From: Cavenderia fasciculata
Taxonomy: Eukaryota > Evosea > Eumycetozoa > Acytosteliales > Cavenderiaceae
Length of the DNA stretch: 64,000 bases
Assembly (NCBI RefSeq): GCF_000203815.1
Contig: NW_004457723.1
Span: 558,001-622,000 of the forward strand
Direction of reading: 5' to 3'
The first letter of the stretch is position 1. Every line of letters starts with the position of its first letter. The notes under the pieces were generated by a model. That model saw nothing but the letters and a program-made list of their open reading frames with translations. It was not told the DNA's origin and made no database searches. A program made the position numbers and the translations under genes. Positions 27,032 to 30,267 of this stretch are shown here, piece by piece.

Positions 27032-28752
27032 ATGTCAGATGAAGAATTAGCACCTTTGGATATTCCATTTGATATCAACTTGTTTTCAGTCAATTTCCAT
27101 CCAACCGATGATCTTGTTGTCGTCTCGGATGCAGAGGGAACTGTTAAACTGTTCCGTTATTCATTGGAAGAGAATCAACAACTACTCTCCCTTAGATTAC
27201 ATCATAGTGGTTGTAGAGAGGCTAGATTCTCAACAGATGGAAAATGTAATAGACAGACAGACATTCAAAAGAAACATTACACGTGTAGCTAGAGTATTCT
27301 TATTCTTACATACCTTTTTGTTTAAACTATTCTATTCGATTCTATTCTATTCTTTTTAGATATATTTACAGCATCGTCTGATCATTCAATGAAAGTAGTA
27401 GATGTAAATACAGGTCAAGTATTATTTACAAGAGAAGAAGCTCATGAGTATGTAAAAATAGAGAAAAGAAAAAAAGAAAGTAGTAATCTCTCTCTTACTT
27501 ATATCTTTATTTCTTTCTCTTTCTATTATTTTTCACACAGTGAAGCAATTAATTGTTTAAATAGTAAAGATTTTATGTTATTTACTGGTGATGATGAAGG
27601 TACTGTTAAAGTATGGGATATGAGACAACAGAATCTTGTTTGCGAATTTCAAGAACATGCTGATTTCATTTCAGAGATTATTACTATAGACGATCGTCAC
27701 ATCATTGCAACAAGTGGTGATGGAGGTGTTTCAAAGTACAACTTTGTCAGAAGAAGTCTTGATGACATTTCTGAAAAGTCTGATAATGAATTATTATCTG
27801 TTATTTCAATGGAGGTACGACATAAAGAAAGAAAAGAACATTCCTCTTTAAAAGTGTATTTATATTTATATTTATTTTATTTAGGATAATCAAACATTGG
27901 TTTGTGGATCACAAGATGGAACGGTTTATATATACGATATTAATAATTTGGAACATCCAAAAAAATTCAAAGGACATCCATTATCTGTCGATACTTTATT
28001 AAAAGTAAATGAAACATCTTTTCTATCTGGTTCATCTGATGGTATTATAAGGTAAATATATATATATATATATATAAATATTTGGGTTGATTGATTGATT
28101 TACTTATTATTCTTTTCTTTTCTTTTATTTTTTTAGATTTGTTGGTCTTAAACCAAAGAAATTACTTGGAGTAATTGGTGAACATCAAGGATTCCCAGTT
28201 GAAAAGATGGCAATTTCAAGAGACAATAGATATTTGGGTAGTATTTCACATGACCTTTCCTTAAAGTTTTGGAATGTTTTCCATTTGTACAATGACGAGG
28301 ATGATGAACAACGCAGCAGTAGCGCAAGTGGTGACGTTGGTCAAATGGATGAAGGACAGTACGAAGATGACGATCAAGAAGATGAAGACGACGATGATGA
28401 AGAGGTTGATATGGACAGTGAAGATGATAGCGACAGTAGCAGTGACGATGATATGATTGATAGTGATAGCGAAGTCATCAAACAAAACAAACAAAAACTA
28501 ATGATGATGATGGCCGCCAAGGGTAAAGTAAAGGTTGGTGATAGTGATGAAGAAGAAGAACAAGATGAAAGTGAAGATGATGACAATAGCGATGATGAAG
28601 ATGACAGTGACGACGACAACAATACACAAAAACCAAAAAAGGTCTCTAAAAAACAATTACATCAACAAGAACAAGATAAATGGAAACAAGGTTCACAACA
28701 ACCAAACAAAAAGAAAAATAAAAAAAAAAAATCTTTTTATAATGGTCTTTAA
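27032..28752 (+). CDS. wdr55: WD repeat-containing protein 55 homologue
   Basis: Five exons, 27032-27245, 27360-27447, 27541-27814, 27885-28051 and 28137-28752, give 452 residues. Six to seven WD40 units are visible ('FSVNFHPTDDLVVVSDAEG', 'GDDEGTVKVWDMR', 'CGSQDGTVYIYDI', 'SGSSDGIIRFVG', 'LGSISHDLSLKFWNV'). They are followed by a long Asp/Glu/Ser tail (about residues 295-430) and a Lys-rich end 'KKKNKKKKSFYNGL'. This beta-propeller plus acidic and basic tail is the WDR55/Jip5 plan. These are nucleolar proteins needed for rRNA processing. The XRCC2-like gene follows on the same strand after about 155 bp. Confidence 0.9.
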
Positions 28753-28908
28753 AAGAAAAGAAAAAAAGATCAATATATATAATATTAATAATAATAATAA
28801 TAATAACATGTAATATAAATCTAAAAAAAATATAATGATTTAATAATATTCTTGGAACTATTTTTTTTGGTTTTGTAGTCAATTTTCAAGCAATTGATTT
28901 CATTCAAT

Positions 28909-30171
28909 ATGTCATCTGAACAACAAATAATAATTAAAAAAGGGTGTATAGATAAATACATTGATGATCATTCAAATCATGGTAATCATATTAAAGATAA
29001 AGATATAATACTTCAAATCATTGATCTAGTAACAGATGATCAAAGAAATCAATCATTGTAAGAATCAAAGAAGATGAAGAGGAGGATATTTATATAAGGT
29101 GTACTGACATTATGTATTTGTTTGTTTAGTTTAATATTATCAGATACAGATAAACAGTTTAAAGCAACTATTCATTGTGTGGTATCTACGCAACTATCTA
29201 GATATTCTATTATAAAGATTAATGATTTCATTGTTGTTGGTGGTGGTGGTGGTGTTGGTAACCCTAACGATCATAGAATAGATATTTATGGATTAGAATG
29301 TATAGGTCATACTGATACTGCTACTGCTAGTGTTCCAATTGAAAAGTTTAAACTTGAAAAGGAAAAGGGATATGATAGAACAGCTTACCAACTATATCAC
29401 AAAAAAGATATTGTCACTGAATTTAGTTTTGGTGTTGCACATGTTGACGATACGATCAATGCACATTATGCAAAGATACAACAACAAGGAAAACAAATAC
29501 TACCTCTTTACAAGACTGGTGGAGCAATTGAATTGTATGGGTCATCAGGTACTGGTAAATCATACTGTTGTCTACTAATGGTAGCTAAATCAATACTACC
29601 AAAACAATGGAAACAATTGGATTTAGGTGGTAATCAAATGGGTGTCATCTACTTTGATAATGACTTTAAATTAGATCTTTTACAATTAAAAAGAATATTG
29701 TATATAATGTATATTTCAAAAAAAAATCAACAAACAAATAATAATAATAATAATAATATAGAAAATAATGAAATTGGAATGGATAAAGATGAAGAATTTA
29801 AAGAATTATTTCAACAATGTTTCAAGAGATTGTTTATTATTAAACCAAGAGATAGTGTTCAGTTGCGTATTACTTTGCGTCAACTCCCAACACTTTTAGA
29901 GTCGGCTGCAAAGACTGTCGATATTCATATGGTTGTGATTGATTCGATATCGGCCTATTATTGGTTAGACAGAGATGAAAGCTTGCAACATACAACTTCA
30001 TGGGCCGAACCATTGAGCAATCTCATTGATCAATACAAAACCATTATCGTCGGAGTTAAACAAGCAATCTTTAAACGAGACATGGATTTTTCTGGAAATA
30101 GAAACAAATGGTTACCATTGGTAAAACATCGTTTCTTTTTCTCTCCTCATTCCTTTTCTGATCAATCATCA

Positions 30172-30207
<36 letters not shown>

Positions 30208-30267
30208 CATCAAAATAACAATAATAATAATTATCATTTTACTTTATTTACACCAAATATTAAATAA
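28909..30267 (+). CDS. xrcc2: XRCC2-type RAD51 paralogue with N-terminal RPA70N-like OB domain
   Basis: Exons 28909-29057 and 29130-30267 give 428 residues. Residues ~8-110 match the replication protein A large-subunit N-terminal OB fold. 'IKKGCIDKYI', 'ILQIIDL', 'FLILSDTDKQFKATI', 'STQLSRYSIIKINDFIVV' and 'IDIYGLECIG' parallel human RPA70 'LSEGAIAAIM', 'ILQVINI', 'RLLMSDG', 'ATQLN...QIHRFIV' and 'VILMELEVL'. Residues ~175-425 are the RecA-like ATPase: Walker A 'GSSGTGKS' (187-194), Walker B 'MVVIDS' with the XRCC2 signature 'SISAYYWLDRD', and the C-terminal 'LVKHRFFFS' block. XRCC2 works in the BCDX2 complex in homologous recombination. The intron lies inside the OB domain and splices in frame, so the two domains belong to one gene model. 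Poly-Asn inserts are at ~253-261 and near the C-terminus. Confidence 0.85.

Follow-up and report, generated by a model that had tools for sequence, protein, structure and literature searches.

A predicted XRCC2 with an RPA1-like N-terminal domain in the amoeba Cavenderia fasciculata

The window analyzed here, a 64,000-nucleotide stretch of the Cavenderia fasciculata genome (contig NW_004457723.1, positions 558,001 to 622,000; C7 among the 21 contigs of the 31.0-Mb genome searched), contains a gene predicted to encode a fusion of 428 residues, in which a domain homologous to the N-terminal domain of RPA1 (RPA70N in human, an oligonucleotide/oligosaccharide-binding (OB) fold) precedes a core of the RAD51 paralogue XRCC2. 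The gene reads as join(28909..29057, 29130..30267) on the + strand, and its features are collected in Table 1. An XRCC2 with an RPA1N-like domain appears to be new; the XRCC2 proteins found here in other amoebae lack it.

The C-terminal part of the protein is, by sequence and modeled fold, an intact XRCC2 ATPase core. A phmmer search of the PDB with the fusion protein places XRCC2 in the top four rows (5.2e-14 to 8.7e-14), followed by RAD51 at 0.19, and Pfam assigns AAA_25 (30.3 bits, cut-off 27). The AlphaFold2 model (mean predicted local distance difference test, pLDDT, 57.3; predicted template modeling score 0.52) reaches a pLDDT of at least 70 in 16 of the 18 ten-residue blocks between residues 201 and 380 of the reading, and its ten best Foldseek rows are human XRCC2-containing complexes. 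Among these, 8ouy_D and 8faz_X are XRCC2 chains by the naming of the phmmer search, 8gbj, 9q23, 9q25, 9q29 and 9q2a are entries that also stand in the phmmer list beside XRCC2, and 9svy_A, 9svx_A and 9sw0_A are assigned to XRCC2 by their length. XRCC2 is the best RAD51-family match of the core in both the sequence and the fold search. Human XRCC2 binds ATP through K54/T55 and D149 (PMC7614784); the fusion keeps these as K193/S194, with Ser replacing Thr, and D321. In addition, R331 aligns with human R159, a single-stranded DNA contact (PMC7618403). The predicted protein resembles the XRCC2 of the human BCDX2 and XRCC3-RAD51C-RAD51D-XRCC2 complexes in its RecA-type core, in its Walker A and Walker B motifs and R159 equivalent, and in an LVKHR.FFS stretch near the end. 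The initial annotation had called this region XRCC2 from its Walker and signature motifs, and the phmmer, Foldseek and residue comparisons bear this out. Unlike the human protein, which lacks an N-terminal domain, the fusion carries ∼110 RPA1N-like residues ahead of the core, as well as an Asn-rich insert within it (residues ∼249-263) and an Asn-rich tail. The N-terminal domain is a departure from XRCC2 architecture that leaves the identity of the core unaffected.

The two parts lie in one reading frame, as first proposed: a single exon holds most of the RPA1N-like domain (residue 51 onward) together with all of XRCC2, and the coding signal is continuous. Mean in-frame codon log-odds, trained on 1317 codons of RPA1, RAD51, XRCC3 and RAD51D, are 0.06 in exon 1, 0.17 at 29131-29292 and 0.16 at 29293-30150, and negative in the two alternative frames. 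The intron, if retained, would introduce two in-frame TAA codons. It is highly improbable that two separate genes were merged here through an assembly or gene-model error. Such an error would fit the absence of the fusion from the public proteins found, and the fusion, a single predicted gene model, is known from genomic sequence alone. However, a merger is difficult to reconcile with a shared exon of equal coding signal and no AT-rich gap: G+C falls to 8% at 28750-28849, ahead of the gene, and stays at 0.22-0.44 throughout 28900-29649 (50-base blocks). Nor does the XRCC2 part have an ATG of its own ahead of Walker A, M1 being the sole in-frame ATG in that interval.

The N-terminal domain was tested for homology to the N-domain of the genuine RPA1 of this genome, and the comparison indicates that the two are homologous. 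Both RPA1 and its tandem paralogue, RPA1L, carry an N-domain like that of the fusion, which is 23% identical to the former and 31% to the latter. A KGCxDxYI-type motif is common to all three (KGCIDKYI in exon 1 of the fusion, where ILQIIDL aligns with RPA70N strand 1), and the pattern built from them has three matches in 31 Mb. Fusion residues K11, G12, C13, I18, I33, Q36, D55, F60, I78 and I102 are identical in the three domains. Each domain is interrupted by a single phase-2 intron ahead of strand 2, and, as read from the sequences, the codon that it splits precedes the conserved Asp by exactly five codons in RPA1 (T43 to D48) and in the fusion (F50 to D55), and by nine codons in RPA1L (S43 to D52). 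These intron positions favor a common origin of the exon structure. Aligned as a set to the PDB-verified RPA70N of human and yeast, the three domains give an hhalign score of 29.1 (P 1.9e-4, probability 47.6), compared with 10.3 ± 2.0 and a maximum of 18.8 in 200 column-shuffled controls; adding an unverified S. pombe sequence brings P to 3.8e-5. The sequences differ in what follows the domain: in RPA1L, as in RPA1, the N-domain is joined to RPA-type DNA-binding OB domains (1fgu, E 2.7e-9, for RPA1L), whereas that of the fusion is joined to a RecA fold and to no single-stranded DNA-binding OB domain. A Gly-rich insert, GGGGGVGNPND, ahead of the last aligned strand further distinguishes the fusion domain from RPA70N.

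At the RPA1 locus itself, RPA1L lies directly downstream of RPA1 in tandem (L009, 3876 onward; G000:C21 from 612875), with an RPA1N-type and DNA-binding OB domains, and its reading ends after 477 residues, presumably at another intron. The genome offers a first RPA1 exon beginning MANTPVKGC (L009, 1408-1535), and this exon carries the start of the N-domain. In the public model of C. fasciculata RPA1 (P0007) the first exon is a different one, beginning MDVSLNQQ, and the model looks mis-annotated at its 5' end.

Several results weigh against the RPA1N assignment. Without the fusion row, RPA1 and RPA1L score 20.9 against human and yeast RPA70N, with a P of only 0.0075. The fusion domain alone reaches an hhalign P of 0.066 even with the unverified S. 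pombe sequence included, and its score against human RPA70N, reached by 182 of 2000 shuffles, lacks significance. Searches of Pfam (including PF04057), the PDB and the whole genome with the domain return the self-match only, and residues 1-128 find no relative elsewhere among 94 candidates at E up to 10. Since RPA1L was chosen by eye at the RPA1 locus, part of its similarity reflects that choice; this does not apply to RPA1. The AlphaFold2 model, built from the unspliced reading, renders the N-terminal part mostly as helices at a pLDDT of 28-54 and is uninformative on an OB fold. The assignment to RPA70N depends on RPA1 and RPA1L. An extension specific to this lineage, or a different OB family whose likeness to RPA70N is fortuitous, would fit the lack of any direct match to PF04057 or a solved RPA70N and the human pairwise p of 0.078-0.12; we consider it very unlikely, and Pfam and the PDB give no match for this genome's own RPA1 N-domain either. 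Of the original proposal that the first ∼110 residues are an RPA N-terminal OB domain, homology stands by way of the genome's own RPA1, with no significant direct match of the fusion domain to human RPA70N; among the suggested checks, the profile search found no PF04057 match, and the structure prediction is informative for the XRCC2-like core but not for the N-terminus.

The partner-binding arginines of human RPA70N are not kept in the domain. In human RPA70N, mutation of R31, R41, R43 and R91 reduces or disrupts binding to several partners (PMC10479964). The fusion residues beneath these positions are V41, Q48, F50 and D97, none of them Arg or Lys, although the R91 column is uncertain in that H98-R99 adjoin D97. 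The genome's own RPA1 has K36, K41, T43 and K80, and RPA1L keeps one of the four, as Lys. Over the first 113 residues, Lys plus Arg against Asp plus Glu number 11 vs 16 in the fusion, 10 vs 10 in human RPA70N, 10 vs 8 in RPA1 and 16 vs 21 in RPA1L. Because the four arginines are not kept and the charge balance is acidic, the domain is unlikely to have an acidic-peptide groove like that of human RPA70N. The suggestion that the fusion places the RPA partner-binding module on XRCC2 is not supported; the loss of the arginines lowers this functional claim and not the homology.

A whole-protein search of public proteins returned six homologues, all without the extra domain: Tieghemostelium lacteum, Acytostelium subglobosum (marked partial), one EukProt entry (P0003), Polysphondylium violaceum, Dictyostelium citrinum and the tunicate Clavelina. 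The first five (P0001-P0005) are 33-40% identical to the fusion over the alignment and begin with a Met only 4-13 residues ahead of the segment aligned to residue 130. The collection is limited to proteins between 0.55 and 1.75 times as long as the query; gene models outside this range would escape, and within it the C. fasciculata fusion itself is absent from the matches. Inspection of other dictyostelid N-termini, which the initial annotation had recommended, thus reveals no added domain in any homologue found. Its statement that no natural fusion of this kind has been described also holds for the open-access literature searched, where titles and abstract openings on XRCC2 in Dictyostelium, RPA70N and RAD51 paralogues contained no mention of one, and nothing was found pairing C. 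fasciculata with RAD51, or XRCC2 with an OB-fold domain fusion.

Most probably, a copy of the RPA1 exon region for the N-terminal domain became fused, in frame, to the XRCC2 5' end in the C. fasciculata lineage, and the original XRCC2 start codon was lost. The protein would work as an XRCC2, bound by RAD51D, binding nucleotide and capping the 5' end of the RAD51 filament. XRCC2 lacks the N-terminal domain common to RAD51, RAD51B, RAD51C and RAD51D (PMC7614784). It forms the 5' cap, and the absence of this domain there is said to restrict further RAD51 loading at the 5' end (PMC7618403). The extra domain would stand free, projecting from the cap at a position left empty in human XRCC2. It would bind protein, or DNA weakly, and so help to place or anchor the RAD51-paralogue complex beside RPA-coated DNA; the arginine-lined groove with which human RPA70N takes up acidic peptides is probably not the means. 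We hold this combination of XRCC2 activity with a free domain placing the complex near RPA-coated DNA only tentatively, at somewhat less than even confidence, and the sequence gives no indication of the domain's binding target. Alternatively, the fusion is real and its domain a ‘passenger’: following a duplication it arrived alongside a new promoter and a new start codon, diverged, and is no more than tolerated by XRCC2. This rather unlikely alternative bears on function only, not on origin. It would fit the low identity to both RPA1-type N-domains, the loss of all four arginines and the XRCC2 homologues without the domain. However, decay would be the expected fate of a useless exon, whereas the open frame, splice signals and normal codon use persist despite divergence, as do the ten residues identical in the three domains.

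The genome encodes a RAD51-type recombinase (L001; Pfam Rad51, 2.6e-72), XRCC3, RAD51C and RAD51D (best row RAD51D, 1.5e-11). No separate RAD51B turned up in an exon-by-exon genome search, which does not prove its absence: the RAD51B query scored highest at the XRCC3 locus, followed by the loci of RAD51 and RAD51C and by a weak match on C16 (E 0.135). Because the XRCC3 locus is its best match, the complex in this genome may be XRCC3-RAD51C-RAD51D-XRCC2, in place of the BCDX2 complex named in the initial annotation. In human, the XRCC3 complex gives RAD51 no assistance in loading onto RPA-coated single-stranded DNA (PMC7618403). A speculative extension, which we regard as improbable, is that XRCC2 in this lineage regained an N-terminal domain from RPA1 rather than from RAD51, and that this domain would serve at the 5' cap as a handle for the RPA-RAD51 boundary in an XRCC3-type complex, perhaps replacing an RPA-handling role of a missing RAD51B. 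With an RPA1-derived domain in this place, a natural XRCC2 raises the question of whether a single chain can couple contact with RPA to capping of the 5' end. Since the human XRCC3 tetramer does not bring RAD51 onto RPA-coated DNA, a genome with this set, where RAD51B does not turn up and XRCC2 bears an RPA-derived domain, offers a natural test case.

Table 1. Features of the predicted fusion gene, in window coordinates
Feature	Position	Strand	Description
Exon 1	28909..29057	+	codes residues 1-49 and two bases of codon 50; RPA1N-like domain
Intron	29058..29129	+	GT..AG, 72 nucleotides, phase 2
Exon 2	29130..30267	+	remaining RPA1N-like domain and entire XRCC2 part; single open frame including stop codon
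RPA1N-like domain	28936..29310	+	residues ∼10-110, intron inside
Short linker	29311..29367	+	residues ∼111-129, without in-frame ATG
XRCC2 part	29368..30156	+	residues ∼130-392
Walker A GSSGTGKS	29539..29562	+	residues 187-194
Walker B and signature MVVIDSISAYYWLDR	29929..29973	+	residues 317-331
Asn-rich tail	30157..30264	+	residues ∼393-428

Directly upstream of the fusion gene, on the same strand (27032-28752), lies a gene whose product resembles a WDR55-type beta-propeller protein with an acidic tail. Two of its pieces score 57.1 and 20.7 bits against Pfam WDR55, where the cut-off for the whole protein is 200.
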